From Lentzea albida (lineage in GTDB: Bacteria > Actinomycetota > Actinomycetes > Mycobacteriales > Pseudonocardiaceae), in the NCBI RefSeq assembly GCF_900111005.1, contig NZ_FOFV01000015.1, positions 124,001 to 188,000 on the forward strand: a DNA stretch of 64,000 nucleotides, given 5' to 3'. This document shows, in pieces, positions 23,742-49,140 of the stretch (positions within the stretch are counted from its first letter, which is position 1; every line of letters starts with the position of its first letter). The translations under genes were made by a program, and so were the position numbers. Under the pieces are notes generated by a model, which was not told where the DNA came from, ran no database searches, and was given only the letters and a program-made list of their open reading frames with translations.

Positions 23742-23746
23742 CGGCG

Positions 23747-24524: not shown

Positions 24525-24745
24525 CCGCCGCTTACCCGGTCGCCACCCAGGCCGACGTCCTGAGCCTGGCCGACGACTACGACGCGATCGTCCGGCGCTT
24601 CGCCAACGACCACGGCGAACTACCCCACGCGCACGCGGTCGATGCGGCGCAGATCGCGCACCGCCTCGCCGAAATCCACGAGGAACAGGCCGAGCACTGG
24701 CGCCGGCTGTCCCGCGAACACCGAGAAGGAAGGACCCAGCGATGA
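24521..24745 (+). CDS. Small helical AICE protein
   Basis: This protein has 74 residues, acidic and helical, with DVLSLADDYDAIVRRFAN and AQIAHRLAEIHEEQAEHWRR. It lacks hydrophobic segments. The function is unknown. It overlaps both neighbours by 4 bp (ATGA), so it is translated in a coupled chain from the gene before to the gene after. Confidence 0.65.
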   Translation: MTAAYPVATQADVLSLADDYDAIVRRFANDHGELPHAHAVDAAQIAHRLAEIHEEQAEHWRRLSREHREGRTQR

Positions 24746-25092: not shown

Positions 25093-25097
25093 GCCCG

Positions 25098-25418
25098 GTG
25101 GCCGGAATCATCTTCCCGCCCGCCTGGGTACTGCACGACTGCGAGTACCTGCTGGATCTCGTCGCGAAGCAGACGTTGTTCGTCGACATGCAGGACGACT
25201 ACGACTTCGCCTGGGTCCGCGATGACGAGTTCCAGCCCGCGCGGCTGATCGAGATCGACCGCGCCCTGTCAACCGAGGCGTTGCTGACCGGCAACTTCTT
25301 GGGTCTCGGGGACGCCGTGACTCTCATCAGCGAGACCGGCACCGAGGTCGTCGCCGAAATGCTGGTGTTCCAGCCGACCGGCCACCAGCTCTACGAGTAC
25401 ATCAGCTCTGGGAGGTGA
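25098..25418 (+). CDS. AICE protein of a tandem paralogous pair, copy 2
   Basis: This 106-residue protein starts with GTG, 5 bp after copy 1. FPPAWVLHDCEYLLDLV, YDFAWVRDDEFQPAR, EALLTGNFLGLGDAVTL and MLVFQPTGHQLYEYI align in order with copy 1 over nearly the full length, though identity is low. A duplicated, diverged pair suggests a heterodimer or two related binding specificities. The function is unknown. The stop overlaps the next gene start. Confidence 0.7.
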   Translation: MAGIIFPPAWVLHDCEYLLDLVAKQTLFVDMQDDYDFAWVRDDEFQPARLIEIDRALSTEALLTGNFLGLGDAVTLISETGTEVVAEMLVFQPTGHQLYEYISSGR

Positions 25419-26281: not shown

Positions 26282-26317
26282 CCCTGGCAGCACAACCCCT
26301 CTGCTGCCCACATGAGC

Positions 26318-26348
26318 GGGGCACGGCCACCTTCCCAGGCCGTGCCCC
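26318..26348 (+). terminator. Hairpin between the DUF2637-like and methyltransferase genes
   Basis: GGGGCACGGCC and GGCCGTGCCCC pair over 11 bp around a short loop (ACCTTCCCA). It lies 36 bp after the stop of the membrane protein and may end or attenuate that transcript before the methyltransferase gene. Confidence 0.6.
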
Positions 26349-26381
26349 GCTTCTCATGCGCCACAATGGAAGGAGACATCC

Positions 26382-26993
26382 GTGCAACCGACCATGCTCG
26401 ATCTGTACAGCGGGGCGGGTGGCGCTGCCTACGGCTACCGCATGGCTGGCTGGCACGTCACCGGCGTCGACATCAACCCCCAGCCCCGCTACGCGGGCCA
26501 CGTCTTCCATCAGGGCGACGCGCTCGAATTCCTCGCCGCACACGGCCACGAGTTCGACGCCGTGCACGCCTCCCCGCCCTGCCAGCACTACGCCAACGTC
26601 ACCCGATGGCGCGGCGACCAGGACGAACACGTCGATCTCCTCGCCGACACACGTGACGCACTCACCAGGTCATACGCCCCGTGGGTGATCGAGAACGTCC
26701 CTGAAGCACCGCTGCGGCCGGACTTCCTGCTCTGCGGTTCGATGTTCGACCTGCGCGTACGCCGACACCGCGCGTTCGAGACCTCCGGCTGGGGCCTCCA
26801 GCTCACCGCACCATGCAACCACCGGATGGGATTGCGGCCGTTCAACCACAGCAACGAACGCGCCTACGCCGACGCGATGGGCTGCAGCTGGATGTCCGCT
26901 CGTGAAGGACGCCAGGCCGTACCGCCTGCCTACACCGAGCACATCGGGCTGACCCTGCTCGACCAACTCCCTGCCCTGACCACCGCTGCCTGA
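26382..26993 (+). CDS. Short DNA cytosine-5 methyltransferase
   Basis: This protein has 203 residues, starting with GTG after AAGGAGA. Motif I is LDLYSGAGGAAYGYRMAG, motif IV carries the catalytic Cys in ASPPCQ (about residue 67), motif VI is WVIENVPEAPL, and RVRRHRAFET resembles motif VIII. It is much shorter than typical C5 methyltransferases, which have 300 or more residues, and resembles compact phage-borne versions with a minimal target-recognition region. No partner endonuclease lies in the element, so it is probably a solitary enzyme that protects the element from host restriction or marks its DNA. Confidence 0.85.
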   Translation: MQPTMLDLYSGAGGAAYGYRMAGWHVTGVDINPQPRYAGHVFHQGDALEFLAAHGHEFDAVHASPPCQHYANVTRWRGDQDEHVDLLADTRDALTRSYAPWVIENVPEAPLRPDFLLCGSMFDLRVRRHRAFETSGWGLQLTAPCNHRMGLRPFNHSNERAYADAMGCSWMSAREGRQAVPPAYTEHIGLTLLDQLPALTTAA

Positions 26994-27009
26994 CGAGAGG
27001 AGACGCCCC

Positions 27010-28362
27010 GTGCTGCCCGCAGACCCGACCACCAGCCTGGAAGACCGCATCGTCCGCAAGCTGCGCTCGGTCGACTACCGCGACTGGCGCGACAAGGTCA
27101 CCGCCATCGGCGGCTGCGCCCAACCGATCCGCATGTTCGGCGCGTGGCAGCTGCACGACCGGAACGGGAAGGTTCTCGAGCACAAGGGCGGGGACATCAT
27201 GGTCCCGTGCGGCAATCGCCGGCAGAGCGTCTGCCCGGCCTGCTCCGACCGCTACGCCGCAGATGCCTACCACCTCATGCACGCCGGACTCGCCGGCGGC
27301 TCCAAGAACATCCCGACCACCGTTACTGAGAAGCCCCGCGGCTTCGCCACCCTCACCGCCCCCTCGTTCGGCAAAGTCCACTCTGCACGCCAGAGCAGCC
27401 GGGGCAAGACCATCCCGTGCTCGTGCGGCTCCTGGCACCACCCCGACGACCCCCGCATCGGAACCCCTGTCGACCCCGACACCTACGACTACATCGGCTC
27501 GATCCTGTGGCAGGCCAACGTGGGTGAGCTGTGGGGCCGGTTCATCCGCAACGTCAAGCGCGCCCTGATGAAAGCGGCCGGGCTGCGCGCCGGCGACTTC
27601 AAGCACCACGCCCGCCTGTCCTACGCCAAGGTCGCCGAATACCAGCGGCGCGGCCTCGTCCACTTCCACGGCGTCATCCGCATCGACGGCCCCGACGGAC
27701 CGCACGACCCGACGCCCCGATGGGCCACGCCCGAACTCTTGGCGGACGCCATCCGCGCCGCCGCCCGCTCGGTGAGCCTGGAGGTCCCCCGCCCTGACGG
27801 TGAGGTCCTGGTCCTGCGATGGGGTGATCAGGTCGACTGCCGCTCCATCCGGCCCAGCAACGCGTCCGACGTCGAGCAGGACGGGGAGATCAGCGAAGCC
27901 CGCTTGGCCGGCTACGTCGCCAAGTACGCCACCAAGGGCACCGGCAAGAGCGAAGCCGCAGACCGCCGCATCCTCTCCGAACTCCACATCGCCCACCTCA
28001 AAGTCTCCGACCACCACCGGCGCATGATCCAAACGGCCTGGGACCTCGGCGGCCTGGACGCCTACGAGTCACTCAACCTGCGCCGCTGGGCGCACATGCT
28101 CGGATTCCGCGGCCACTTCCTGAGCAAATCCCAGCGCTACAGCACCACCTTCAAAGCCATCCGCGAGGAACGGCACGCCTTCCGCACCCTCGAAGTCCTC
28201 GACCGCATGGGCTACGACCCCGACACGGTCACCGTGATCAACGACTGGACCTACACGGGCTCGGGCTACAACACCGACGCCGAACGCACGCTCGCCCTCG
28301 CGATCGCAGAGGGCCGCAAGGAACAACGTCAACGCAAGTACGCAAGGGAGGACGCAGCATGA
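27010..28362 (+). CDS. rep: Replication initiator protein (RepSA-like, rolling-circle type)
   Basis: This protein has 450 residues. The N-terminal part has paired cysteines in MVPCGNRRQSVCPACSDRYA (a zinc-binding pattern typical of actinomycete Rep proteins) and again CSCGSWHHP. The metal-binding HUH-type motif is in RGLVHFHGVIRID (about residue 217), followed by GYVAKYATKGTG with a tyrosine suited to nicking. RepSA of pSAM2 is the reference protein. It allows autonomous replication after excision. The stop overlaps the xis start by 4 bp, giving the classical rep-xis-int operon. Confidence 0.9.
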   Translation: MLPADPTTSLEDRIVRKLRSVDYRDWRDKVTAIGGCAQPIRMFGAWQLHDRNGKVLEHKGGDIMVPCGNRRQSVCPACSDRYAADAYHLMHAGLAGGSKNIPTTVTEKPRGFATLTAPSFGKVHSARQSSRGKTIPCSCGSWHHPDDPRIGTPVDPDTYDYIGSILWQANVGELWGRFIRNVKRALMKAAGLRAGDFKHHARLSYAKVAEYQRRGLVHFHGVIRIDGPDGPHDPTPRWATPELLADAIRAAARSVSLEVPRPDGEVLVLRWGDQVDCRSIRPSNASDVEQDGEISEARLAGYVAKYATKGTGKSEAADRRILSELHIAHLKVSDHHRRMIQTAWDLGGLDAYESLNLRRWAHMLGFRGHFLSKSQRYSTTFKAIREERHAFRTLEVLDRMGYDPDTVTVINDWTYTGSGYNTDAERTLALAIAEGRKEQRQRKYAREDAA

Positions 28363-28538
28363 GCAAGCTGTGGGGCATCAAGGACGTCGCGGACTTCCTC
28401 GGCGTGCCTGCCCAGACGCTGTACCAGTGGAGGACGAAGAACTACGGGCCTCCGGGACGACGGATCGGCAAGTACGTCCGCTACATCCCGGAGGACGTCA
28501 AGGCGTGGTTCGAGTCGCAGCCGCAGGGGGCCGGCTGA
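28359..28538 (+). CDS. xis: Excisionase (MerR-like HTH_17)
   Basis: This protein has 59 residues, with ATG overlapping the rep stop; GGGAGGA is upstream. LWGIKDVADFLGVPAQTLYQ followed by GPPGRRIGKYVRYIPEDVKA is the compact winged HTH_17 fold of AICE excisionases. It would bend att DNA and bias the integrase toward excision. Its stop overlaps the int ATG. Confidence 0.9.
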   Translation: MSKLWGIKDVADFLGVPAQTLYQWRTKNYGPPGRRIGKYVRYIPEDVKAWFESQPQGAG

Positions 28539-29692
28539 TGTCCAAGCCACCGATGGCACTCGGGACGTACGGCGAGATCTGGTTCGTCCGCACTCCGGCC
28601 GGCAAGGTCCGCGCGATCACCAACTACCGCGACTACGACGGAGTGACGCGGCAGGTCGAGCGGACTGCCAAGACCGAGAACGCCGCGAAGAACCGGCTGA
28701 AGGAGGCACTGAGAGATCGAGCTCGTGCGGTGGTGGGGGAGGAGATCACCGATCGCACGAAGGTCTCCGAGGTCGCGGACAAGTACCTCGCGGAGCTGGA
28801 CGAGTCGAAGAAGGCCGCGCGCACCAAGCGGACCTATCGGGAGTCCTGGGACCGCGACCTCAAGGACGCAGTCGGCTCCCTCACCGGGCGAGAGATCACG
28901 ACGGGCACGGCAGAACGCGTCCTGCGGACGATCCGTGACACGGCAGGCCTGGGGAGTGCCAAGCATGCGAAGGTCGTGCTCACCGCGATCATGGGCCTCT
29001 ACGTCCGGTACGACGCGATAGGCACCAACCCGGTCCGCGAGGTCGGGGCGCTGGGGGAGAGCAAGAAGGCCAGGCCGGTCAGGAAGAAGCTCACGAAGAT
29101 CGAGTGGGGCGACTACCTCCGGCTGAGGGCCTACCTGCTGGGCAATGAGCGGGCTCGGAACCTCGACCTGGTCGACCTGGTGGACATGCACGCGGCGGTA
29201 GGTCCGCGGCTGGGTGAGTTCCTGGCGCTCGACTGGACCCGCGTCCGAGAAGACGAGGGTGTGATCCTGCTGGAGGGCACCGTGATCCGGCTGACCGGTG
29301 TCGGGCTGTTCGTCCAGCCCCACACGAAGTCGGTCGCCGGGATGCGGACGCTGAGGATCCCGGCCTGGGCGATGGACGTCCTCCGCAGACGCCGGCCGAA
29401 CTCGGAGAGCGAGTGGGTGTTCCCGTCCTCGTCAGGAACGCTGCGGGATCCGGACAACACCCGGAAGGCGCTGCGCAGCGTCCTTGAGGGCTCAGAGTGG
29501 GAGGGCCTGCATCCGCACGCCTTCCGGCACCTCGTCGCGACGCAGCTCGATGCGGCCGGACTGAGTGCGAGGGAGATCGCCGACTACCTCGGCCACGCCC
29601 AGGTCAGCATGACCCAGGACGTGTACATGAACCGGAAGTCAGTCGGTCACCGGGCGGCGGACGCCCTGGAAGGTCTGAAGCCGACTGAGTGA
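28538..29692 (+). CDS. int: Tyrosine recombinase / integrase
   Basis: This protein has 384 residues. The N-terminal arm- and core-binding domain runs to about residue 175. The catalytic domain carries Arg in GPRLGEFLALDW (about 222), the HxxR box in HPHAFRHLVAT (about 326), His in YLGHAQVSMTQ (about 351) and the nucleophile Tyr in DVYMNRKS (about 361). The ATG at 28538 overlaps the xis stop (TGATG). It ends 66 bp from the right att repeat in tRNA-Arg, the standard position for pSAM2-type integrases, and therefore almost certainly catalysed this insertion. Confidence 0.95.
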   Translation: MSKPPMALGTYGEIWFVRTPAGKVRAITNYRDYDGVTRQVERTAKTENAAKNRLKEALRDRARAVVGEEITDRTKVSEVADKYLAELDESKKAARTKRTYRESWDRDLKDAVGSLTGREITTGTAERVLRTIRDTAGLGSAKHAKVVLTAIMGLYVRYDAIGTNPVREVGALGESKKARPVRKKLTKIEWGDYLRLRAYLLGNERARNLDLVDLVDMHAAVGPRLGEFLALDWTRVREDEGVILLEGTVIRLTGVGLFVQPHTKSVAGMRTLRIPAWAMDVLRRRRPNSESEWVFPSSSGTLRDPDNTRKALRSVLEGSEWEGLHPHAFRHLVATQLDAAGLSAREIADYLGHAQVSMTQDVYMNRKSVGHRAADALEGLKPTE

Positions 29693-29709
29693 ATCCACTG
29701 GATAAGCAC

Positions 29710-29737
29710 TGGGCCGACCTCCGAGGAGATCGGCCCA
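29710..29737. terminator. Element-borne hairpin behind int and the tRNA
   Basis: TGGGCCGA (29710-29717) pairs with TCGGCCCA (29730-29737). It lies between the converging int and tRNA-Arg genes. It would stop int transcripts and also replace the tRNA gene's own terminator, which was displaced to 16859-16890 by the insertion. Confidence 0.7.
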
Positions 29738-29758
29738 CAGTCTTGCTACCTGCGGTGT

Positions 29759-29800
29759 AGCGCCCCTGGCAGGATTCGAACCTGCGACCTCGGGATTAGA
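29759..29800. repeat. attR: 42-bp direct repeat inside tRNA-Arg
   Basis: It is identical to 16900-16941. It spans the 3' end of the tRNA gene through to the anticodon loop, so integration regenerated a complete tRNA here. Confidence 0.92.
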
Positions 29801-29833
29801 AGTCCCTCGCTCTCTCCACTGAGCTACAGAGGC
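29761..29833 (-). tRNA. tRNA-Arg (anticodon UCU)
   Basis: The gene is 73 nt long. The acceptor stem is GCCTCTG/CAGGGGC with discriminator G. The D arm contains TAGCTCAGTGG, the anticodon loop is CTTCTAA with anticodon TCT, and the T arm is GCAGG-TTCGAAT-CCTGC. CCA is not encoded. It is intact despite serving as the AICE attachment site. It reads AGA codons, which are rare in this genome. Confidence 0.95.
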
Positions 29834-32815: not shown

Positions 32816-34747
32816 GTGCCAATCGAACGCTCCACCAGAACGGGTTTGGTGCCCCTCGTCGCCATCGGCTTCGCCGTGGCCGCCCTCGCGGCCGTCGCGC
32901 TGAGCTCGTTCGAGAGCAACCCGCCGGTCGGTGTGCAGATCGTGCGGGTGCTGACCGAGACGGGTGCGGTGGTGACCATCGGCTCGTTGCTGCTGGCGGC
33001 GTTCCTCGTGCCACCGCAGAAGTCCGGCACTCTCGCAGCGGACGGCTACGCGGCGATGCGCACCGCTGGGTGGTTCGCGCTCGTGTGGCTCGTCGGTGCA
33101 CTGCTGTCGGTGCCGTTCACCACGGCGGCCGCGATCGACAGGCCGGTGAGCTCGTTCACCTTCAGCCAGATGATCGCGACGGCGATGCTGCTGGAGCAGT
33201 CGAAGGCATGGCTGCTGACGGCGATCATCGTGGCGTTGCTCGCACTGGGGTGCCGTCTAGTGCTCACGTGGGGATGGACGACCGTCCTGCTGTTCGGCGC
33301 CATCTTCGCGTTGGTGCCGGTCGCCGTCACGGGCCACTCGTCGTCCGGCGGCTCGCACGACATGGCGACGAACAGCCTGTTGTTCCACCTCGTCGCCGCG
33401 GTGCTCTGGGTGGGCGGCCTGATCGCGTTGCTCGCGCACGGCAGACGTGGCGGTGCGCACCTCCCGCTCGCCGCGACGAGGTTCTCGAAGATCGCGCTGG
33501 TCTGCTGGATCGTCATGGCCGTCTCCGGCGTGGTCAACGCGCTGGTGCGCATCACGCCGGCAGACCTGGTGACGTCCACCTACGGCTGGCTGACGCTCGG
33601 CAAGCTGGCGTGTCTGCTGGTGCTCGGCGTGTTCGGCTACTTCCAGCGCGAACGCGGCGTGAAGGGCGTGGTCGACGGCAGGCCGCACGCCCTGCTCAAG
33701 CTGGCCGGCCTCGAGATCCTGCTGATGATGTTCACCATCGGCCTGGCCGTGGCGCTCGCCCGCACGCCCCCGCCCGGCGGCAGCACCGAGCTGCCCAGCC
33801 GCACGGAGATCGCGATCGGCTACGACCTCGACGGGCCGCCGACGCTCGCGGCCGTCCTGTTCGACTGGCGCTTCGACCTGATCTTCGGCACCGCGGCGCT
33901 GGTCCTGGCCGCGCTCTACGTGCTGGGCGTGCGCAGGCTGACCCAGCGCGGTGACAAGTGGCCGGTCGGACGCACCGTCGCGTGGCTCTGCGGCTGCTTC
34001 TCGCTGTTGTTCGCGACGTCGTCGGGCATGGGCCGGTACTCGCCGGCGATGTTCAGCGTGCACATGGAGGCGCACATGGTGCTATCCATGCTGACACCGA
34101 TCCTGTTCGTCCTGGGCGGGCCCGTCACGCTGGCGTTGCGCGCGCTGCCGGTCAACAAGGAGGTGCCGGGGCCGCGGGAGTGGGTGCTGGCGTTCGTGCA
34201 CTCCCCGGTCGCGCGGCTGCTGACGAACCCGTTCGTGGCGCTGGGGTTGTTCGTCGGCTCGTTCTACGCCCTGTACTTCTCGGGGCTCTTCGAGGCCGCG
34301 CTGCCGTTCCACTGGGCGCACCTCGCGATGAACGCGCACTTCATCCTCGCCGGGTACGTCTTCTACTGGCCCGTGATCGGCGTGGACCCGTCACCGAACA
34401 AGCTCCCGCCGCTCGGCCGGTTGGGGCTGTTGTTCGCGTCGATCCCGTTCCACGCGTTCTTCGGCGTCATCCTGATGAGCTCCACGACCGTGATCGGCGA
34501 GCAGTTCTACCGCGGCCTCTCGCTGCCGTGGGTGCAGAACCTGCTGGAGGACCAGCGGCTCGGCGGCGGCATCGCGTGGGCGGCGGGGGAGATCCCGTTG
34601 CTGGTGGTCATGGTCGCCCTGCTCACCCAGTGGGCGCGGCAGGACGGCCGGGACGCGAAGCGGTACGACCGCAAGGCCGACGCCGATGGGGACGCCGACC
34701 TCGAGGCCTACAACGCGATGCTGCGGAAGATCTCCGAGAAGGGTTAG
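32816..34747 (+). CDS. CopD-CtaG fusion membrane protein (copper transport / cytochrome oxidase assembly)
   Basis: This protein has 643 residues. The N-terminal half has about eight spans with a CopD-like region (WMLLF-type helices; HLVAAVLWVGGLIALLAHG is the CopD signature around residue 200). The C-terminal half is a caa3_CtaG domain with MGRYSPAMFSVHMEAHMVLS, LPFHWAHLAMNAHFILAGY and FHAFFGVILMSS, rich in His and Met likely to handle copper. The protein would deliver copper to cytochrome oxidase. It ends in a charged cytosolic tail and overlaps the convergent ABC permease gene by 4 bp. Confidence 0.92.
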   Translation: MPIERSTRTGLVPLVAIGFAVAALAAVALSSFESNPPVGVQIVRVLTETGAVVTIGSLLLAAFLVPPQKSGTLAADGYAAMRTAGWFALVWLVGALLSVPFTTAAAIDRPVSSFTFSQMIATAMLLEQSKAWLLTAIIVALLALGCRLVLTWGWTTVLLFGAIFALVPVAVTGHSSSGGSHDMATNSLLFHLVAAVLWVGGLIALLAHGRRGGAHLPLAATRFSKIALVCWIVMAVSGVVNALVRITPADLVTSTYGWLTLGKLACLLVLGVFGYFQRERGVKGVVDGRPHALLKLAGLEILLMMFTIGLAVALARTPPPGGSTELPSRTEIAIGYDLDGPPTLAAVLFDWRFDLIFGTAALVLAALYVLGVRRLTQRGDKWPVGRTVAWLCGCFSLLFATSSGMGRYSPAMFSVHMEAHMVLSMLTPILFVLGGPVTLALRALPVNKEVPGPREWVLAFVHSPVARLLTNPFVALGLFVGSFYALYFSGLFEAALPFHWAHLAMNAHFILAGYVFYWPVIGVDPSPNKLPPLGRLGLLFASIPFHAFFGVILMSSTTVIGEQFYRGLSLPWVQNLLEDQRLGGGIAWAAGEIPLLVVMVALLTQWARQDGRDAKRYDRKADADGDADLEAYNAMLRKISEKG

Positions 34748-37712: not shown

Positions 37713-37974
37713 GCCGTTCGGGGCAACCCTGTGCCGGACTTCGGGAACCCACCCGATCGGGTAGCGCGCGCCGGAGAAGATGTAAGTACCGAGATCCACG
37801 GAGAAGGAGGGAAGCTCGTAGGTCGGAGCCGCTGAGGACCGATCGCCGACAACCGTTCACCTTCGAACGGAACAAGCAGGTCACCGACTCACGTGACGCT
37901 CGTCGCGGGTGTGGGCGGCTGCTTGTCGGCGACCGAGGTCAGGAGCCTCTGGGCACCGCTCTACGATCGCCGCC

Positions 37975-39651
<1,677 letters not shown>

Positions 39652-39669
39652 GAGGGCAACGGCGACGTC

Positions 39670-42600
39670 GTGGCGGCGAGGGGCGAGACGCAGGCGAACG
39701 TCGAGGTGAGCACGCTGGTCGTGCCCGCCTGGATGCTGCGTTGGCGCGCACCGGAGCTCGCTCTGGTGCTGGGTGAGCGCGCTGTCGCGCTCGCCTCGAC
39801 CCGCCGCGACGAAGCCGACCGCCTGAGAGCGGAGTCGCTCGTGGTCTTCGCGGGCAACCGCATGGGCCGCGGCGTCCGCGTCGCCGACAGGGCGATCGAC
39901 GCCCTGAAGGCGGCCCAGGTCGCCGGTGAGCACGAGACCGGGTGGCTGCTGCGGGTCGAGCTCGCGGCGTGCGCCCGGTCCGTGGGCGCACCGCTGACGG
40001 GGTTCGCGGCGGTCACCCCGGTGCTGGAAGCGCCGGACGTGCCCGCGGAACTGCGGGCCTCGGCCCTGGTGCAGGCGAGTGAATGCCTCGTCACGGTCGG
40101 CCGCGGCGACGAACCCGCGCGGGCGCTCGCCGAGGCCGATCAGCTCTACGTCGCCGACACCACGCTCGACGAGGACACGCGTCTGCTGCTGCGTGGCCAG
40201 ATCCGTGCCGTGCAGGCCGCCCAGCACCGGCGCTGGGGCGACCTCGCCGCGGCGATCGGGGCCGCACGCGAGGGCCTCGACCTGCTGAGCAGGTTCTCCG
40301 ATCCCGATGCGGACAGCGGTCAGGGCGTCGGCAGGCTCAGGCTGGAACTCGCGCTCGCGCTGATGGACGCGAACCGGCTGCTCGACGCGAGCGACGTCGG
40401 CGCCCCGCTGCTCGACCGCTCGGTGCGCGCGCCTTCGGCGTCCACCACCGGCTGGTTGCGCCTGGCCCTGGCCACGCGGGTGCACCTGCCCGCGGGCAGG
40501 GTCGGACTGGCCCGCGAGATGCTGCGCGAGGCCGTGGCGAGCGCCGAGCGCCACCAGCTCGACACGCTGCTGGCGGAAGGCCTGCTGGCACTCGCCCACG
40601 TGCACGAGGTGTCCGGCGACCTGGCCGACGCGCTGAAGGACCTGCGCTCGGCCCACGCCGCAGAACGCCGCCGCGCCCGCGCCGTCTACGCGGTGCGCGC
40701 CCGGCTCGCCGCGGAGTTCGCCGGTGTGCACCGCCAGCCGGCCGACCTGCACCAGCAACTGGCGAGCGTGCTCAGGCCGGTCGAGGGCATGCAGGTGGTC
40801 ACCGACGGCGTGCTGTCCGCCGCACTGAAGCAACAACTCCGGCAGTGGCGCCCGGTCCAGGTCCGCAAGGGCGACGGGCTGAATGCCAAGCGTGCTCGGC
40901 GCGCTGCCGAAGACATGACCGTGGAGGGTTTGTCCGCGGCCCGACAACACGCCGCCGACCGGTGGCGCATGGTCCAGCCGTTCGGCGAGCCCGATGACAA
41001 GACCCCGGAAGCCGTGGAACCGCCACCCGCACCCCTGCCTTCTTCCTCTCCCTCCTCTTCCCCTTCCGACCGCACGGTCCCCGCGTCGGGCCTGATCGCC
41101 TCCGCGGGCGCCATGGTGAGCGGCCGGCGTCGTGCCGCCCGCGTGGCCGCCGGTGAGATCGACGACGACCGGCCCACCACCATCGCCGAAATCCCCATCA
41201 CCCCCGCGGCTCCCGAGCCGGAGCAGCCGCCCCAGGCCGAGTCGCGGCCCCAGCTGACCGTCGAGCAGGAACGCAAGCGCAAGGTCGAGCAGCAGCTCAT
41301 GGAGCTGCAGCGCGAGGCGCGCCGCCAGATCGAGGCGGAACGCCAGGCCCGCGCCGAACAACGCGCCCAGGCCGAACGCGAGGCCCGGGCCGCCGAGGAG
41401 GCGGCCCGCCAGGAAGCCGCCCGTGAGGAGGCGGCGCGCCAGGAAGCGGCTCGCCAAGAGGCCGCGCGTCAGGAGGCGATCCGCCAGGAAGCGGCGCGCG
41501 AAGAGGCCGCCCGCCTGGAGGCGGCTCGCCAAGAGGCCGCCCGCCAGGAGGCGGCTCGCGAAGAGGCCGCGCGCAAGGAAGCCGCTCGACTGGAGTCGGA
41601 GCGTGAAGCGGCCGCCCGTCTGGAGGCGGCCCGTGCAGAGAGCGCGCGCCAGGAGGCGGCCCGCCTGGAAGAGGCTCGCGCGGAGGCAGCGCGGCAGGAG
41701 GCGGCGCGGGAGCAAGCCGCCCGCGAAGAGGCCGCTCGTCTGGAAGCGGCTCGTGAAGAAGCCGCCCGTCAGCTGGCCGCCCGCGACGAGGCGGTGCGCC
41801 ACGAGGTGGCTCGCCTGGAGAGCGTGCGCCAGGAGGAGGCCCGCCGCGAGGCGGCGCGTCAGGAAGCGGTGCGCAGGGACGTCGCCCGGCAGGAGGCGGC
41901 ACACCAGGAGGTCGCCCGCCAGGCCGTCGAACGCGAGGAGGCCGCCCGCCAGGCCCTCGAACGCGAGGAAGCCGCCCGCGCGGAGGCCGGCCGCGCCGAC
42001 GCGTCCGGGGCGCAGCCGGAAAGCGTCCTCGACATGCTCAAGGCGCAGGGCCTGCGGGCAGGCGGCCGCCGCCGGGCGCGCGAAGCCGAGTCGCAGTCCG
42101 GCGCCCCGTCGTGGCGTGTTGAACCGCCGTCGAGCCGGCGCCGTGACGACCAGGCGGCAGACGCGTCGCCGAACTACTTCGCCGATGCCGGCACCCGCTC
42201 CCGCTCCGAACGGCTGGCCGACCAGGTGAACCCGGACGGTCCGGCGCGGTCCGGCCTGGCCGCGGCGTTCTCGCGCCCACCGGAGTCCCCGGACTTCGGC
42301 CCCCACACCGACGAGCCCGCCTTCCCGCTGCACACCCCGGCCGACGGTTTCCCGGCCGTCACGGCCGACCCGGACGAGCGCAGGCTCCCCGACCTCGACT
42401 TCAGCGGACTGGACTTCAGCGGCCTCGACTTCGGTGCCTCGAAGTCGACCGCGTCCGTCCCGTCCCCGCCGCCCGCGCCCGAGGAGCACCCGGACCCGGC
42501 GGAGCCGGAGAAGAAGCCGCTCCCGCCCCTCCCGGACCCGGTCCCGGACGTGCCGGTCCCGGACGAGATCCCGAAGACCCCCGAACCGGATCTGCTGTCG

Positions 42601-43821
42601 ACGAGCTTCCTGAGCTCGGCCGACGTCGACGACGACCCGTCGGACGTCCCCACGACCCCGGTCCGCGCACAGCAGGCCGAGCAGGCCCAGCCGACCTTCG
42701 GCAGCCAGGCCGGCTTCGGCACGCAACCGACCTTCGGCACGCAGACGTTCGGCACCCAGTCGGCTTTCGGTGGGCAGCCGGCCTTCGGCGGGCAGGCGGG
42801 GTTCGGTGCGCAGCCCGTCTACAGCATCGAGGCGGAGTACGGCAGCGCGCCCAGCCGCAGCACGGAGGCGGGCGGCACCGAGCAGGGCAACGGCGACGAG
42901 TGGGGCGCCGGCACCGGTCCAGGTCGCGGCGCGGGGTCCGGTAGCGGCCAGGAGTCCGCGTACAGCACGGACTTCGCCCACAGCGCGGAGCCCGGGCAGG
43001 CCACCGGCCAGACGGCGTCCCCCGGCTCGGCAGAGCTCACCTCCGACCCGAGCGCGGCGGACCCGCAGCCGTCGACCGCGACGGACCTGGGGTCCAGCGC
43101 GACCGCGTCACCCGACTCGGTCGAGTCGTACGACTTCTTCGCCACCAGGTCCGAGGGCGGGGACGCGGCCACCGAGAAGATCAGCGCCGCCGCGGTGTCG
43201 GAAGACCCGGCGGGCCGTCCGAGCAGTCGCCGCAGGCCGAGCGAGATGAGCCTCGCCGACCTGCTGGCCGAGGCGCTGGTCGCGTACGAGACCGGGCGGC
43301 GCTCGGACGAGGAGCAGCTGGACGCGTCGGACCTGGCCGCTCCGGAGTGGTCGTCCGACGAACCTGCGGCGCAGGCCGCGGTGGTGGACCAGCCGGACCG
43401 TCCCGTCGAGGCCGAGCCCGCGGACACGGGCTTCCGGCCGGGGGAGTCGTTCGGCGCGGTGGCCGAGGAGCGCGCGGTGGGGTCGGACCCGGGAGCGGGG
43501 ACGGCGTTCAGCATGGAGTCGTTGTTCCGGACCGGCCGGCCTGAGGACGACTCGGAGGCCGAGGCCTCCGTGGAGGAGATGTTCGGGTCGGGCGCGTCGT
43601 ACATCGTGCAGCTGAACAGACCTGCCGGGCCCTCTCCGGAGGACCGCGAGAACCACGCGGACGCGCTGTTCCGGGTCGGTGGGCCCGCCTTCGCGGAGTC
43701 CGAGCAGGAGAAGACCGGGCCGATCCGCCCGGTGGCACCGGTGTCGGACACCGAGACGACCGGTCCGATTCGTCCTTTCCGGGCGGACGGGCCTCCCGGG
43801 TGGACGCTGCCGGGGGTGTGA
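39670..43821 (+). CDS. Giant protein with helical-repeat head, long charged single-helix region and FG-repeat segment
   Basis: This protein has 1383 residues. Residues 1-340 form an all-helical TPR-like domain (RAIDALKAAQVAGEHETGWL; ALAHVHEVSGDLADALKDLR). Residues about 530-780 consist of near-uninterrupted EEAAR/QEAAR units, a pattern typical of a single alpha-helix or very long coiled coil. The C-terminal 600 residues are acidic, Pro/Ser/Gly-rich and probably disordered, with DFSGLDFSGLDFG near 915 and about eight FGT/FGG-type repeats near 1007-1050. Short conserved-looking patches occur near the end (MSLADLLAEALVAYETGRR; ADALFRVGG; TGPIRP twice). There is no signal peptide or membrane span. 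It follows ettA by 18 bp. I do not recognise a family; a cytoplasmic scaffold is plausible. Confidence 0.75.
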   Translation: MAARGETQANVEVSTLVVPAWMLRWRAPELALVLGERAVALASTRRDEADRLRAESLVVFAGNRMGRGVRVADRAIDALKAAQVAGEHETGWLLRVELAACARSVGAPLTGFAAVTPVLEAPDVPAELRASALVQASECLVTVGRGDEPARALAEADQLYVADTTLDEDTRLLLRGQIRAVQAAQHRRWGDLAAAIGAAREGLDLLSRFSDPDADSGQGVGRLRLELALALMDANRLLDASDVGAPLLDRSVRAPSASTTGWLRLALATRVHLPAGRVGLAREMLREAVASAERHQLDTLLAEGLLALAHVHEVSGDLADALKDLRSAHAAERRRARAVYAVRARLAAEFAGVHRQPADLHQQLASVLRPVEGMQVVTDGVLSAALKQQLRQWRPVQVRKGDGLNAKRARRAAEDMTVEGLSAARQHAADRWRMVQPFGEPDDKTPEAVEPPPAPLPSSSPSSSPSDRTVPASGLIASAGAMVSGRRRAARVAAGEIDDDRPTTIAEIPITPAAPEPEQPPQAESRPQLTVEQERKRKVEQQLMELQREARRQIEAERQARAEQRAQAEREARAAEEAARQEAAREEAARQEAARQEAARQEAIRQEAAREEAARLEAARQEAARQEAAREEAARKEAARLESEREAAARLEAARAESARQEAARLEEARAEAARQEAAREQAAREEAARLEAAREEAARQLAARDEAVRHEVARLESVRQEEARREAARQEAVRRDVARQEAAHQEVARQAVEREEAARQALEREEAARAEAGRADASGAQPESVLDMLKAQGLRAGGRRRAREAESQSGAPSWRVEPPSSRRRDDQAADASPNYFADAGTRSRSERLADQVNPDGPARSGLAAAFSRPPESPDFGPHTDEPAFPLHTPADGFPAVTADPDERRLPDLDFSGLDFSGLDFGASKSTASVPSPPPAPEEHPDPAEPEKKPLPPLPDPVPDVPVPDEIPKTPEPDLLSTSFLSSADVDDDPSDVPTTPVRAQQAEQAQPTFGSQAGFGTQPTFGTQTFGTQSAFGGQPAFGGQAGFGAQPVYSIEAEYGSAPSRSTEAGGTEQGNGDEWGAGTGPGRGAGSGSGQESAYSTDFAHSAEPGQATGQTASPGSAELTSDPSAADPQPSTATDLGSSATASPDSVESYDFFATRSEGGDAATEKISAAAVSEDPAGRPSSRRRPSEMSLADLLAEALVAYETGRRSDEEQLDASDLAAPEWSSDEPAAQAAVVDQPDRPVEAEPADTGFRPGESFGAVAEERAVGSDPGAGTAFSMESLFRTGRPEDDSEAEASVEEMFGSGASYIVQLNRPAGPSPEDRENHADALFRVGGPAFAESEQEKTGPIRPVAPVSDTETTGPIRPFRADGPPGWTLPGV

Positions 43822-44202
43822 GGGTGGCCAGCGCCACACCTCAAGCCTTGCCCAACCCCTCCCCGCCGGGTACCTGGGCAGAGGTCGCACGAGCGGCCCC
43901 GTGCTCGCCCGGACGGGGCGGCCGGTGACGGCCGGCGGTTCCACGGAGGTCACGCCGTCGTGGGGCCCATGATCGGATGAACGTGTGGAGCGACGGGGTG
44001 TCGGGGCCGGCGGAGACAGCCGGCGTCCTGTCGCGTCCGCGGATGTGGAAAGCCTTGTCCCCACTGATGATGTGACTCGATTCAGCCCACGATTCAGTGG
44101 CCAGTCAGTGCCCCTCCTGTTGCCGGTGACGGCCGCCACCCCATCTATGGTGGGGCCGGACCCGGCACACAGAGGTGCCGGATAGCGTGGAGTCGCCTGA
44201 AC
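43822..44202. other. Promoter-bearing gap before glutamate dehydrogenase
   Basis: These 381 bp hold no gene I can support. Stop codons interrupt all frames that could be coding. The last 60 bp contain TATGGT- and TAGCGT-like -10 words (about 44145 and 44185), reasonable candidates for the promoter of the downstream gene. No operator stands out. Confidence 0.5.
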
Positions 44203-47200
44203 ATGACCTCGACTGGAGCCCCGACCCGAACCGACGACGTCTCCGCGGCCCCCGCCGCGGGTGATGGCAGTCGAACGGCCAGTCCTGAGCAGGTCCGTGA
44301 CGAGCTGATCGAACGGGCCGCCGCCAATGCCCCCGAACTCGCTGACCTGATCCGCCTCTTCTACCGCCACGTGCCCGCCGAGGAAGTCAACGACGACGAC
44401 CCGGTGGACCTGGTCGGTGCGGTGCGGTCGAACTACCAGCTCGCCGAGAGCCGCGTCCCCGGACGCCCCGCGGTGCGCATCCTCAACCCGACGCGCAGCG
44501 CCGACGGGTGGCAGTGTCCTGTCACCGTCGTCCAGGTCGTCACGGACGACATGCCCTACCTCGTCGACTCGGTCGCGTCCGAGCTCACGCGCGGTGGTGT
44601 GCAGGTGCAGCGCGTCGTGCACCCGATCGTCGTGGTGCGGCGCGACCCGGTCACCGGCGAGCGCACCGAGGTGCTGCCGACGGCCGATCCGGCGGATCCG
44701 CCCGCGGACGCGCTGGCCGAGTCGTGGATGAACATCGAGGTCGACCTCATCACCGACGCCGACCGCGCCCGCGAGCTCGAGACGCGCCTGCTGGCGGTGC
44801 TGACCGACGTCCGCGAGGTCGTCGAGGACACCGACCGCATGGTCACCACGGCGTTGCAGCTGGCCGAGGAGCTCGGCAAGGACTCGTCCGAGGCCACCAC
44901 GGACGGCGCGAACCTGCTGAGGTGGCTCGCGGACGGGCACTTCACGTTCATGGGCTACCGGCAGTACGAGCTGGTGCGCGAGGACGGCGAACCGGCGCTG
45001 CGAGCCGTGCTCGCGAGCGGCCTGGGCGTGCTGCGCCAGGACAGCCTCGCCGCGCGCAGCCTGACCGCCGGGCCGGACAACGGCGCGCAGGCCCTGAGCC
45101 CCGACCTGCTGGTGCTGACGCAGGCCAGCGCGCAGAGCAGCGTGCACCGCAGCGTTTACCCCTACTACGTGGGCGTGAAGACTTTCGACGGCGAGGGCAA
45201 CGTCACCGGTGAGCATCGGTTCCTCGGCATCTTCAGCACCACGGCGCTGCACGAGAACGTGCTGGACATCCCGGTGGTCGAGCGCCGCGTGCGCGAGGTG
45301 ATCCACCGCGCCGGCTTCCCGCTGCAGTCGTACTCGGGCCAGCGGATGCTCGAGGTGATCCAGAACTACCCGCGCACCGAGCTGTTCTCCGTCGACACCG
45401 AGACGCTTTACCAGACGACCACGGGCGTCATCGCCCTCGCGGAACGCCGCCGGCTGCGGCTGTTCCTGCGCCGCGACCCGTTCGGCCGCTTCTTCAGCTG
45501 CCTGGTCTACCTGCCGCGCGACCGCTACACGACGACGAGCCGCCTCGCGATGCAGGAGGTGCTGCTCGCCGAGCTCGGCGGCCTGAACCTCGAGTACAGC
45601 GCGCGCATCGGCGAGTCCGCGCTGGCCCGCGTGCACTTCATGGTCCACACGGACCCGGCGCGCACGCTGGAGCCGGACGTGCAGGCGATCCAGGCGAAGC
45701 TGGGCGAGGCCGTCCGCAGCTGGGACGACCGCATGGTCGAGGCCGTCGGGGGCGACGACCTCGGCGCCGAGTCCGCCACGGAGCAGGGCCAGCGATTCGC
45801 CTCGGTGTTCCCCGAGGCCTACAAGGAGGACTTCCCGGCCGCCACGGGCCTCGAGGACTTCCGGCGCATCGAGAAGCTCGTCGAGGGCGACCTCGACATG
45901 GTCTTCTACGTGCCCGAGGACGCCGAACCGGGCGAGCGGCGCTTCAAGCTGTTCGTGACGGGCGAGGGCATCACGCTCTCGGACGTGCTGCCGATGCTCC
46001 AGCGCATGGGCGTCATCGTGGTCGACGAGCGGCCGTACGAGATCGCGCGCGAGGACGGCGTGCAGTGCTGGATCTACGACTTCGGCCTGCGCATCGACAA
46101 GGCCGCGCTCGCGCAGCTCTCCGAGGCCGACCTCGACGGCGTGCGCGTGCGTTTCCAGGACGCGTTCGCGGCGGTCTGGCGTGGTGAGGCCGAGGTCGAC
46201 AGGTTCAACTCGCTGGTGCTGCAGGCCGGGCTCACCTGGCAGCAGGCCGCGATGCTGCGCGCGTACGCGAAGTACCTGCGCCAGGCGGGCACGCCGTACT
46301 CGCAGGACTACATCGAGGACGCCGTGCTCGGCCACACGAGCGTGGCGATCGCGCTCGTGGCGTTGTTCGAGGCCCGGTTCAACCCGGCGCTGAGCGACGC
46401 GACCAGGGCCGCGCACACCGAGACCATGGTCACCGAGATCGGCAAGCTGATCGACGACGTGACGAGCCTCGACGCGGACCGCATCCTGCGCAGCCTGCTC
46501 AGCCTGATCAACGCCACGCTGCGGACGAACTACTTCTTCCGCGACGCCGACGGCAACGGGCGGCCGTACCTGTCGGTCAAGCTCGACCCGCAGGCCATCC
46601 CGGACCTGCCGCAGCCGCGGCCGAAGTTCGAGATCTTCGTGTACTCGCCGCGCGTCGAGGGCGTGCACCTGCGCTTCGGCAGCGTCGCGCGCGGTGGCCT
46701 GCGCTGGTCCGACCGCCGCGAGGACTTCCGCACGGAGATCCTCGGCCTGGTCAAGGCGCAGGCCGTGAAGAACGCGGTGATCGTGCCGGTCGGCGCGAAG
46801 GGCGGCTTCGTCGTCAAGAAGCCGATCCCGGCCACGGGTGACCCCGGCATCGACCGCGAGAACTTCATGTCCGAGGGCATCGCCTGCTACAAGATGTTCA
46901 TCTCGGGCCTGCTCGACCTCACCGACAACCTGATCAACAACGAGGTCGTGCCCGCGCCGCAGGTCGTGCGCTACGACGGTGACGACACGTACCTGGTCGT
47001 GGCCGCGGACAAGGGCACCGCGACGTTCTCCGACATCGCGAACGGCGTGAGCCAGAGCTACGGCTTCTGGCTGGGCGACGCGTTCGCGTCCGGTGGCTCG
47101 ATCGGCTACGACCACAAGGCCATGGGCATCACGGCCAAGGGCGCGTGGGAGAGCGTGAAGCGCTCGTTCCGCGAGCTCGGCGTGGACACGCAGACCGAGG

Positions 47201-49140
47201 AGTTCACCGTCGTCGGCATCGGCGACATGTCCGGTGACGTGTTCGGCAACGGCATGATGCTGTCCGAGCACATCCGGCTCGTGGCGGCGTTCGACCACCG
47301 GCACGTCTTCCTCGACCCGAACCCGGTGGCGGCCACGTCGTTCGCCGAGCGCGTGCGGCTGTTCAACGTCCCGCGCTCGTCGTGGGACGACTACGACCGC
47401 TCGCTGATCAGCGAGGGCGGTGGCATCTTCCCGCTCACGGCCAAGTCGATCCCGATCTCCGAGCAGGCCCGCGTCGCGCTGGGGCTCGACGAGGGCGTCA
47501 CCAAGCTGTCCCCGCCGGAGCTCAAGAAGGCGATCCTGCTCTCGCCGGTCGACCTGCTGTGGAACGGCGGCATCGGCACGTACGTCAAGGCGTCGACCGA
47601 GTCGCACGCCGACGTCGGCGACAAGGCCAACGACACGATCCGCGTCAACGGCGACGAGCTGCGGGTCAAGGTCATCGGTGAGGGCGGCAACCTGGGCCTC
47701 ACCCAGCGCGGCCGCATCGAGTTCGCCCGCAAGGGCGGCAAGGTCAACACCGACGCGCTCGACAACTCCGCCGGCGTCGACTGCTCCGACCACGAGGTCA
47801 ACATCAAGATCCTGCTGGACCACCTGGTCCGGGAGGGCTCGGTGGAGCAGCAGCAGCGCAACGAGGTCCTCGCCGAGATGACCGACGAGGTCGGCGAGCT
47901 CGTGCTGGCGGACAACTACTCGCAGAACAGCGTCCTCGGCGTCAGCCGGGCGCACGCCGCCCCGATGCTGTCGGTGCACGCACGTCTCACGGCGGACCTG
48001 GAGGCGCGCGGCGCGCTCAACCGGAAGCTGGAGGCCCTGCCGAGCCCGGCCGAGTTCAAGGCGCTGGAGAAGAGCGGCCAGGGCCTCACCTCGCCCGAGC
48101 TCGCCACGCTGCTCGCGTTCACCAAGCTCACGCTCAAGGAAGAGCTGCTCTCGAGCGACATCCCGACGATCGACACGTTCACCCGCAAGCTCCCGGACTA
48201 CTTCCCGAGCCTGCTGCGCGAACGCTTCGGCGCCGAGATCCCGAACCACCCGCTGGCGCGGCAGATCATCACCACGGTCGTCGTCAACGAGGTCGTCGAC
48301 GGCGGCGGCATCTCCTACGCCTTCCGCCTGGCCGAGGAGACGAGCGCCTCGGCGACGGACGCGGTCCGCGCGTACGCCGTGGTCACCCAGGTCTTCGACC
48401 TGCCGTCGATCTGGCGCGAGATCGAGGCGCTCGACACCGTGGTGCCGACGGACGTGCAGGACAACATGGTCCTCGAGACCCGCCGCCTGCTGGACCGCGC
48501 GTCCCGCTGGCTGCTGTCCAACCGCCCGCAGCCGCTCGCGGTGGGCTCGACGATCAACCGCTTCCGCAAGGTGGTCGAGGACCTCAGCCCGCACGCCTTC
48601 GACCTGTTGCAGGGCAAGGAACTCGACGTGGTCGCCGGCAAGGCGGACCGCTACGTCGAGCAGGGCGTTCCGGCCGAGCTGGCCCGCAAGGTCGCGGCGC
48701 TGCTCTACATGTACGGCCTGCTCGACGTCACCGAGATCGCCGAGCTGGCCGAGCGCGAGTTCGGCCCGACCGGCGGCGCCGGCCCGGAGCGCACGCACCG
48801 GGAGACGGCCGAGCTGTACTTCGCGCTGTCCGACCACCTCGACATCGACCACATGCTGGACTCGGTGACGAGCCTGGAACGCGGCAACCGCTGGCACGCC
48901 CTGGCCCGGCTGGCACTGCGCGACGACTTCTACTCGTCGCTGCGGGCCATCTCGGTCGACGTGCTGCGGGCGAGCGACGAGGACGACACGGCGAGCGAGA
49001 AGATCGCCAAGTGGGAGCAGGCCAACGCCTCGCGCCTGTCCCGCTCGCGCGGTGCGCTGGAGGAGATCAACCGGGTGCACCAGCTGGACCTGGCGACCCT
49101 GTCCGTGGCCGCGCGCCAGGTGCGGAGCATGGTCAGGTAG
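44203..49140 (+). CDS. gdh: NAD-specific glutamate dehydrogenase, large 180-kDa type
   Basis: This 1645-residue protein matches the length of the L_180 GDH class first described in Streptomyces. It interconverts glutamate and 2-oxoglutarate using NAD, mainly for glutamate catabolism. Landmarks are the long N-terminal regulatory part with YLVDSVASELTRGGVQVQ, the catalytic core around residues 820-1200 with RGGLRWSDRREDFRTEILGL, GAKGGFVVKKP (catalytic Lys), VVAADKGTATFSDIAN and GIGDMSGDVFGNGM, and the NAD-binding VIGEGGNLGLTQRGR. It is a single-gene unit closed by a strong terminator at 49154-49187. Confidence 0.96.
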   Translation: MTSTGAPTRTDDVSAAPAAGDGSRTASPEQVRDELIERAAANAPELADLIRLFYRHVPAEEVNDDDPVDLVGAVRSNYQLAESRVPGRPAVRILNPTRSADGWQCPVTVVQVVTDDMPYLVDSVASELTRGGVQVQRVVHPIVVVRRDPVTGERTEVLPTADPADPPADALAESWMNIEVDLITDADRARELETRLLAVLTDVREVVEDTDRMVTTALQLAEELGKDSSEATTDGANLLRWLADGHFTFMGYRQYELVREDGEPALRAVLASGLGVLRQDSLAARSLTAGPDNGAQALSPDLLVLTQASAQSSVHRSVYPYYVGVKTFDGEGNVTGEHRFLGIFSTTALHENVLDIPVVERRVREVIHRAGFPLQSYSGQRMLEVIQNYPRTELFSVDTETLYQTTTGVIALAERRRLRLFLRRDPFGRFFSCLVYLPRDRYTTTSRLAMQEVLLAELGGLNLEYSARIGESALARVHFMVHTDPARTLEPDVQAIQAKLGEAVRSWDDRMVEAVGGDDLGAESATEQGQRFASVFPEAYKEDFPAATGLEDFRRIEKLVEGDLDMVFYVPEDAEPGERRFKLFVTGEGITLSDVLPMLQRMGVIVVDERPYEIAREDGVQCWIYDFGLRIDKAALAQLSEADLDGVRVRFQDAFAAVWRGEAEVDRFNSLVLQAGLTWQQAAMLRAYAKYLRQAGTPYSQDYIEDAVLGHTSVAIALVALFEARFNPALSDATRAAHTETMVTEIGKLIDDVTSLDADRILRSLLSLINATLRTNYFFRDADGNGRPYLSVKLDPQAIPDLPQPRPKFEIFVYSPRVEGVHLRFGSVARGGLRWSDRREDFRTEILGLVKAQAVKNAVIVPVGAKGGFVVKKPIPATGDPGIDRENFMSEGIACYKMFISGLLDLTDNLINNEVVPAPQVVRYDGDDTYLVVAADKGTATFSDIANGVSQSYGFWLGDAFASGGSIGYDHKAMGITAKGAWESVKRSFRELGVDTQTEEFTVVGIGDMSGDVFGNGMMLSEHIRLVAAFDHRHVFLDPNPVAATSFAERVRLFNVPRSSWDDYDRSLISEGGGIFPLTAKSIPISEQARVALGLDEGVTKLSPPELKKAILLSPVDLLWNGGIGTYVKASTESHADVGDKANDTIRVNGDELRVKVIGEGGNLGLTQRGRIEFARKGGKVNTDALDNSAGVDCSDHEVNIKILLDHLVREGSVEQQQRNEVLAEMTDEVGELVLADNYSQNSVLGVSRAHAAPMLSVHARLTADLEARGALNRKLEALPSPAEFKALEKSGQGLTSPELATLLAFTKLTLKEELLSSDIPTIDTFTRKLPDYFPSLLRERFGAEIPNHPLARQIITTVVVNEVVDGGGISYAFRLAEETSASATDAVRAYAVVTQVFDLPSIWREIEALDTVVPTDVQDNMVLETRRLLDRASRWLLSNRPQPLAVGSTINRFRKVVEDLSPHAFDLLQGKELDVVAGKADRYVEQGVPAELARKVAALLYMYGLLDVTEIAELAEREFGPTGGAGPERTHRETAELYFALSDHLDIDHMLDSVTSLERGNRWHALARLALRDDFYSSLRAISVDVLRASDEDDTASEKIAKWEQANASRLSRSRGALEEINRVHQLDLATLSVAARQVRSMVR

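Follow-up and report, generated by a model that had tools for sequence, protein, structure and literature searches.

The window analysed here is a stretch of 64,000 nucleotides from Lentzea albida (assembly GCF_900111005.1, contig NZ_FOFV01000015.1, positions 124,001 to 188,000 of the forward strand), and the open reading frame (ORF) at 39670-43821 (+), which has a GTG start and encodes 1383 amino acids (aa), is named X. X is probably a single-copy tetratricopeptide repeat (TPR) adaptor of the Pseudonocardiaceae with a disordered, motif-bearing tail, which in Lentzea has acquired a helical spacer that is under selection and a small cluster of Phe-Gly (FG) dipeptides. The head and the helical motif LADLLAEALVAYE (LADLL below) are the most constant parts of the family, the motif being present in 53/60 proteins with a ratio of nonsynonymous to synonymous substitution rates (dN/dS) of 0.07 in Lentzea; the helix and the FG block are Lentzea inventions. 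In the proposed mechanism, X would act as a cytosolic adaptor encoded directly downstream of ettA, in which a predicted TPR superhelix, possibly of the peptide-binding kind, would hold one partner while the long disordered tail would present short docking motifs, chiefly the LADLLAEALVAYE helix. In the ancestor, the head was probably followed by a degenerate GGDEF domain that would have disappeared from many lineages as the tail diverged. In Lentzea, an EAAR single helix of up to ~38 nm appears to have entered the tail in a single gain on the tree and to be under purifying selection; it may keep the head and the tail motifs at a distance from each other, and the short FG cluster could add weak self-association. 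The principal elements are:

39670..43821 (+): X gene, TPR head and long tail, 1383 aa; orthologues lie between ettA and gdh.
39670..40785 (+): TPR superhelix head, aa 1-372; AlphaFold2 (AF2) predicted local distance difference test (pLDDT) 91, Foldseek and VIA-align TPR matches, profile matches to TPR chains, dN/dS 0.15.
41260..42015 (+): EAAR/QEAAR helix-forming run, aa 531-782, a predicted single alpha-helix by composition and periodicity; dN/dS 0.11-0.13.
42688..42816 (+): FG block, aa 1007-1049, 7 FG in 43 aa with an xFG[TSAG]Q pattern; dN/dS 0.45.
43240..43302 (+): conserved, putative recognition helix SEMSLADLLAEALVAYETGRR, aa 1191-1211; 53/60 family proteins, dN/dS 0.07.

Sixty loci were fetched from the family; one of them (L082) was dropped for lack of a tblastn match to the head, and family counts refer to the other 59 plus the window's protein. 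Two loci (L042 and L075) are broken frames and one (L050) is truncated by a contig end. Lentzea counts refer to 20 full-length proteins among 23 read, with L138 (contig end), L139 (no helix) and L140 (broken frame) set apart and a 24th genome (G352), which is fragmented, left out; dN/dS values were likewise derived from 20 Lentzea proteins.

The head was assigned through its predicted structure and its family profile. For the 34-residue TPR consensus, a single-sequence Pfam scan gave barely any match (TPR_2, E 9.3); the family profile matches designed TPR chains, down to E 1.3e-11, over ~50 positions. The AF2 model, computed with 60 homologues, reaches a pLDDT of 91 and a predicted template modelling score (pTM) of 0.88 and consists of ~16 stacked antiparallel helices. 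Foldseek returned 58 matches at E<=0.001, of which the 50 listed are largely TPR proteins, and VIA-align gave Z scores up to 25.9, with APPBP2, NprR, Rap, subunits of APC/C, LGN and MalT among the matches of the two programs; structures beyond those listed, such as the TPR of PknG, may match as well. Sequence identity to these structures is only 6-17%, and the matches therefore show a TPR fold, not kinship. Several of the matched TPR proteins bind extended peptides, as entry titles also indicate, and such peptide-binding TPRs (NprR, Rap and LGN) are among the best matches of the head, which for this reason may itself be a peptide-binding adaptor.

High Z scores are common among helical-repeat structures. 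NprR (5dbk) aligns with the head at Z 24.9 and a root-mean-square deviation of 4.5 over 313 residues, Rap (4gyo) at Z 23.2 and domain III of MalT (1hz4) at Z 21.8; these alignments span most of the head, at an identity of just 8-12%. Unlike these three proteins, X has no recognised helix-turn-helix, phosphatase or signal-peptide gene, and a very long disordered tail instead. The TPR domain of LGN/Pins, an adaptor that binds polarity proteins through extended peptides in the complexes named in the entry titles, provided the top Foldseek matches (E 2.6e-6). With TM-scores of 0.34-0.55 and an identity of 13-17%, the two have the TPR fold alone in common, and a polarity role is not implied. Kinship of the head to other TPR-GGDEF proteins found no support: the head profile, run over ORFs from the 29 loci L092-L120 and from three more, gave as its only match at E <0.01 the protein L164, itself a family member.

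X is found across the family at a fixed place. With the window's head as query, matches were obtained in 139/150 family genomes and 46/46 genera, and a second query, the head of a divergent relative, added four of the 11 missing genomes (143/150). A single genus (code g5) accounts for five of the seven genomes still lacking a head; another genome of that genus, with a weak head match, carries a TPR-like ORF directly after ettA (L082, judged by eye). One copy of the head is present in the window's own genome. The head is 96% identical in Lentzea cavernae. An 85% identical head occurs in Nocardia sp. NRRL S-836 (L161), an organism that is probably a misnamed Lentzea. The immediate neighbours are:

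37975..39651 (+): ettA, ABC-F translational throttle; NCBIfam EttA equivalog, 927 bits.
44203..49140 (+): gdh, NAD-glutamate dehydrogenase (GDH) gene, 1645 aa; Pfam Bac_GDH_CD, E 2.6e-264.

X starts 18 nt past the ettA stop codon, and gdh begins 381 nt downstream of the end of X. All 59 loci in which tblastn finds a head have ettA upstream on the same strand, and 57 have gdh downstream, the exceptions being L050 (contig end) and L062 (not found within the stretch). Outside the family but within its taxonomic order, gdh directly follows ettA in 9/26 ettA loci (25 genomes, with flanks of at most 1.5 kb seen), and X was for this reason most likely inserted between two old neighbours, with loss elsewhere as the alternative. 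A class-level search (197 genomes, one divergent query) listed non-family matches that all start at query residue 311 or beyond, in the last TPR helix and the GGDEF domain; an order-level search (121 genomes, one divergent query) gave just two weak partial matches outside the family and missed many family members too. Judged by these searches, restriction of X to the Pseudonocardiaceae is likely, though not proven. No paper on the gene was found among the matches listed for gene context, GGDEF-TPR, Lentzea, signature proteins and degenerate GGDEF.

The tail, by comparison with the head, diverges strongly: whole proteins range from 567 to 2276 aa (the one of 567 aa being a broken frame), and other genera fill the tail with different repeats. 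Within it, the LADLL motif, LA[DE]LLAEALVAYE, usually near the C terminus, beats its own 50 shuffles in the 53 proteins mentioned above; the scoring matrix was built from 34 of these, and the independent count is 19/26. The seven misses comprise L042 and L075, which carry the motif in a downstream frame, the contig-cut L050, and four proteins that form one clade. In Lentzea the low dN/dS of the motif compares with 0.79 and 0.65 on its two flanks. An AF2 model of a 694-aa relative has a pLDDT of ~97 in the head and mostly <50 in the tail, save for four short helices, of which LADLL is the best (84 over its first ten residues, the others ~71-72). By this prediction, made on one short relative, the long tail is disordered, and LADLL, whose conservation is observed, is a candidate docking motif. 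DNA patterns for LADLL and for the C-terminal TGPIR sites described below, searched across the window's own genome, matched X only, although both patterns are narrow and the TGPIR one misses the second copy in X itself. The other conserved tail segments are:

40915..40989 (+): conserved segment MTVEGLSAARQHAADRWRMVQPFGE after the head, aa 416-440; in 20 Lentzea proteins identity averages 0.89-0.95 across aa 391-450.
41119..41157 (+): first basic motif SGRRRAARVAAGE, aa 484-496; [GS]GRRR in 45/60 tails versus a mean of 0.7 in shuffled tails.
42022..42081 (+): SVLDMLKAQGLRAGGRRRAR motif, aa 785-804; GGRRR[ASPTVQ] in 35/60 tails versus 0.2 shuffled, dN/dS 0.20.
42517..42591 (+): proline-rich PLPDPVPDVPVPDEIP segment, aa 950-974, seen in translations; a strict regular expression finds it in just 10/60 family proteins.
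43702..43782 (+): C-terminal doublet EQEKTGPIRPV...DTETTGPIRPF, aa 1345-1371, candidate kinase/FHA site; both TxPI sites in 20/20 Lentzea proteins.
43798..43818 (+): C-terminal GWTLPGV, aa 1377-1383; WTLP in 20/20 full-length Lentzea proteins.

A C-terminal Trp was also considered as a family motif and set aside as weak, since its 33/60 occurrences compare with 10.2 of 60 in shuffles.

The tail of X also holds a run of 252 aa built of EEAAR/QEAAR pentads (Ala 80, Glu 59, Arg 51, Gln 26, Gly/Pro 2), which a stricter cut-off trims to 181 aa. Its self-identity is 0.51 at lag 5 and 0.57 at lag 10. Glu/Asp is followed by Arg/Lys at i+3 in 40 pairs versus 13.2 (standard deviation 2.8) in shuffles (z 9.4) and at i+4 in 18 versus 13.2 (z 1.8), so that the run has the helix-favouring charged composition and the favourable i+3/i+4 E->R/K pairs by which single alpha-helices (SAHs) are recognised. 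Large hydrophobic residues have a power of 0.00 at the heptad period of 3.5, and the sequence is more consistent with a single alpha-helix than with a coiled coil, which is unlikely without heptad power, though the window's helix does have a 3.6-residue hydrophobic periodicity. An alpha-helix rises 1.5 Å per residue, from which the upper length given above would follow. A Pfam match of the run to histone H1-like HC2 nucleoproteins passes the cut-off (E 4.6e-12); HC2 proteins have Lys-rich, basic DNA-binding repeats, and the match is read as compositional because the run has a net charge of -8 and 3 Lys in 252 residues. A Pericardin repeat match lies below its Pfam cut-off and was ignored. As described in excerpts of the sources, long charged helices act as a spacer or spring in the SAH domains of myosins, INCENP and CAF-1 (PMC4183817, PMC4571873, PMC10335832), and many prokaryotic proteins have already been reported to contain SAHs (PMC5378345). 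The predicted Lentzea helix resembles the former in being long and charged; it differs in its Ala-rich EEAAR/QEAAR pentad, as opposed to dense E/K/R.

The peptide pattern of the helix has outlived the DNA repeat. Between aa 571 and 760, 115/185 residues match the residue five positions on, and the codons differ in 64 of these 115 identities, versus 62.2 expected under independent codon draw, while the longest exact DNA repeat in the region is 20 nt; codons are therefore randomised where residues are not. The dN/dS of the helix is similar to that of the folded head. Its length within Lentzea ranges from 73 to 252 aa, the middle being rich in insertions and deletions, and on the head tree the helix is a single gain. 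The contig-cut L138 has the helix, and L140, with its broken frame, has EAAR repeats in another frame. L139 is sister to the remaining Lentzea proteins and lacks the helix; the same protein (genome G360) carries repeated GL[AG]A[AT]FGRE and PFSFD/PFGFE stretches, and F-rich repeats may thus have preceded the helix.

The FG block lies further along the tail. From residue 783 to the end, X has 11 FG, versus a mean of 2.7 and a maximum of 8 in 500 shuffles; 7 of them fall in the block, which has zero charged residues, and the tail from residue 783 as a whole has 1.8 FG per 100 aa and 24% charged residues. Full-length Lentzea proteins contain 12 to 35 FG, with a core of 40-60 aa holding 4-9 FG and a tail from residue 783 that is 16-24% charged. 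In the excerpts of PMC4283134, Nup98 FG domains have a median of 549 aa and 43 FG, one FG per ~12.5 aa, with 2.5% charged residues. X is like them in setting FG dipeptides, in an FGxQ context, among uncharged G/T/S/A/Q/P spacers; it is unlike them in length (~43 aa), FG number (7) and tail charge, and falls outside the cohesive Nup98 type on length, FG number and low charge as that excerpted source gives them. The FG block is not an FG domain of the Nup98 class and may add weak cohesion.

Helix, FG cluster and LADLLAEAL occur together in 20/20 full-length Lentzea proteins. Outside the Lentzea helix clade, 56 relatives were compared: a helix-like run of at least 60 residues occurs in none of them (the longest are 42 and 33) and 4 FG within 60 residues in only three, so that 53/56 have neither feature, although the head is kept in 56/56 and LADLL in 49/56. 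These counts bear on an earlier, sequence-only reading of X, whose observations are confirmed and whose interpretation is supported in part. The TPR-like head that it described agrees with the AF2 superhelix and the TPR structure matches, its ~250-residue helical region with the 252-aa EAAR run devoid of heptad periodicity, and its FG repeats with a real enrichment, all three recurring in every full-length Lentzea protein. The further statement that the acidic tail holds FG repeats resembling those that form condensates overstates the likeness to nucleoporins, because the block is ~43 aa long and 24% of all tail residues are charged. That reading also suggested looking for head, helix and FG together across Pseudonocardiaceae, and named homologues with head and tail yet neither helix nor FG as the case that would speak against it. 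The architecture is present in 20/20 full-length Lentzea proteins and does not define the family, where the 56 relatives with a head, 49 of them with LADLL, are for the most part (53) just such homologues. Its suggestion of a spacer-scaffold is a reasonable reading of the Lentzea form.

Several observations weigh against the adaptor-and-spacer interpretation. The suggested peptide binding of the head is read from the fold alone, and the AF2 model is silent on what the LADLL helix might bind. LADLL is missing from the clade formed by L069, L085, L089 and L090 (Shimodaira-Hasegawa-like approximate likelihood ratio test, SH-aLRT, 100), and the motif is therefore not indispensable. The 22 large hydrophobic residues of the window's helix peak at a period of 3.6 residues with a power of 0.70, a value reached by 1/1000 shuffles; they therefore favour one face of a straight helix, and packing against a partner is conceivable. 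In this test, which took 10 of the 20 Lentzea helices, the window's included, the nine others have no 3.6 peak and only scattered weak peaks at 3.5-3.8. Since repeat units are aligned with similar ones, the dN/dS of aligned helix codons comes out too low, and the spread in helix length implies that an exact span is not needed.

Two further aspects of the family bear on its history and on possible alternatives. A GGDEF-like domain follows the head in 13/60 family members, both by a Pfam scan of residues 331-1000 and by a full-length scan with a purpose-built profile; Pfam and this profile found none in the window's protein. Together with that of L164, these 13 domains are set apart from 29 other actinobacterial GGDEF domains by a branch with SH-aLRT 99. 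The family shares with diguanylate cyclases the presence of such a domain and differs from them in its signature, which is degenerate throughout: an intact GG[DE]EF occurs in 0/14 X-family domains versus 26/29 of the others, the nearest forms being GGEEL and GGGEF. The distribution of the domain on the head tree requires 8 changes, a count that is soft because many deep forks are weak and 26/61 inner branches are open. An ancestral degenerate GGDEF after the head, lost several times, the Lentzea line included, is most likely.

The second aspect is the threonine doublet at the C terminus. Both TxPI sites lie within 36 residues of the C terminus in the 20 full-length Lentzea proteins, as E[KR]TGPI followed by ETTGPIR in 18/20 and with ESTGPIR or ETTVPIR in the other two; an acidic-TT form is present in 8/60 family members versus 0.2 in shuffles. 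In the excerpts of PMC7164672, PknA-dependent phosphothreonine (pThr) sites have an acidic residue at -1 and at -3 to -6, Pro at +2, Leu/Val at +3 and a basic residue at +4. ETTGPIR has Pro at +2, Ile at +3 and Arg at +4, while its acidic residues fall at -2 and -4 and leave -1 and -3 unmatched, and the EKTGPI site lacks the basic +4 residue in most Lentzea; by its sequence, the doublet partly resembles Ser/Thr-kinase sites. The window's own genome has five matches to the forkhead-associated (FHA) domain. One of these FHA proteins (L205), which we take to be GarA, has TSVFRADFL ahead of its FHA domain, with ERTSVFR in the same register as the X doublet.

With these results the competing explanations can be weighed against a TPR adaptor with a Lentzea-specific spacer. 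X could be a polar organiser or condensate scaffold in which FG cohesion and the long helix build a spatial hub, and an FG count from residue 783 on that exceeds all 500 shuffles in 20/20 full-length Lentzea proteins, with an uncharged core whose FGxQ pattern bears a loose resemblance to GFGQ motifs in a trypanosome Nup (PMC4283134, as excerpted), speaks in its favour. The shortness of the core and its few FG, the charge of the surrounding tail, the dN/dS of 0.45 in the block and the 53 relatives devoid of both features make such a role unlikely. To a similar degree we doubt that the tail is an entropic spacer formed by neutral low-complexity drift, with helix and FG runs as functionless slippage expansions. 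The wildly varying length and composition of the tail, the different repeats of other genera and the indel-rich middle of the helix would suit drift, yet the helix has a dN/dS close to that of the head, repeats its residues every five codons with randomised codons and short exact DNA repeats, and is kept in 20/20 full-length Lentzea proteins.

An equally improbable alternative holds that kinases phosphorylate the E[TK]TGPIR doublet and that the pThr binds an FHA protein, for example GarA, relieving or localising inhibition of the neighbouring NAD-GDH. The constancy of both TxPI sites in Lentzea, their partial fit to the PknA pattern (Pro +2, hydrophobic +3, basic +4; PMC7164672), the shared register with GarA-like L205 and the position of gdh as the next gene agree with this, as do excerpted reports that GarA directly affects the activity of GDH, KDH and GltS in mycobacteria (PMC5448819) and is phosphorylated at ETTS in Saccharopolyspora (PMC12321487). 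The fit is incomplete, however, with Ile at +3, Thr/Lys at -1 and acidic residues at -2 and -4; Saccharopolyspora with a non-phosphorylatable GarA still catabolised glutamate (PMC12321487, as excerpted); the adjacency may reflect merely the old ettA-gdh pair; and the acidic-TT form is so rare in the family (8/60) that phospho-tail regulation cannot be the family's function. More doubtful still is a combined form in which the Lentzea protein is a phospho-regulated molecular outrigger, its head docking a partner, the helix of up to ~38 nm acting as a spacer and the far tail (FG, LADLL, TGPIR) recruiting an FHA protein such as GarA; if true, it would couple amino-acid sensing kinases to the GDH encoded by the adjacent gene, as a genus-specific upgrade of a family-wide adaptor. 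Least credible is the idea that X descends from a c-di-GMP signalling protein and retains a sensing or scaffolding role through a degenerate GGDEF: the 13/60 members with such a domain and their well-supported branch with L164 would suit it, but the canonical signature is absent from all 14 family domains and present in 26/29 others, and the window's protein yielded no GGDEF domain at all.

As a probable adaptor, encoded by a single-copy gene whose position is constant in a family with antibiotic producers among its members, X offers a clean case of bacterial adaptor evolution: the head persists, as does a 13-residue motif in most lineages, the GGDEF domain decays, and each genus rebuilds the tail. 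In Lentzea a long helix arose once and is under purifying selection, which makes the role of bacterial spacers directly testable, and the kinase-site-like doublet beside gdh points to a concrete though speculative connection with GarA-type control of glutamate metabolism.

Long antisense ORFs lie opposite both X (37939-42981, -, 1680 aa) and gdh (43108-49080, -, 1990 aa). The 1680-aa ORF has zero Pfam matches, and both appear to be shadow ORFs of coding DNA with a high GC content. The converse, that X is the shadow of the 1680-aa ORF, was rejected, as the antisense frame is without a Pfam match and the + frame of X is under purifying selection, with dN/dS <1 in every tested region. The gdh product (44203-49140), despite strong Pfam matches to GDH domains, has none to NCBIfam models at E 0.1.

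Elsewhere in the window, a likely integrated element of the actinomycete integrative and conjugative element (AICE) type spans 16900-29805. It is bounded by 47-nt copies of a tRNA-Arg end at 16900-16946 and 29759-29805, which are 96% alike, and contains an nSTAND/AAA ATPase ORF, an FtsK/SpoIIIE ORF, a pSAM2-type RepSA and a phage-type integrase beside tRNA-Arg. A third copy of the 47-nt repeat (17444-17490, 70% match), 544 nt inside the left copy, is perhaps the remnant of an older insertion. A single 643-aa ORF at 32816-34747 joins CopD copper-resistance and CtaG cytochrome oxidase assembly domains, and a 389-aa ORF at 61519-62688 (-) ends in a Barstar (barnase inhibitor) domain (E 1.7e-12).

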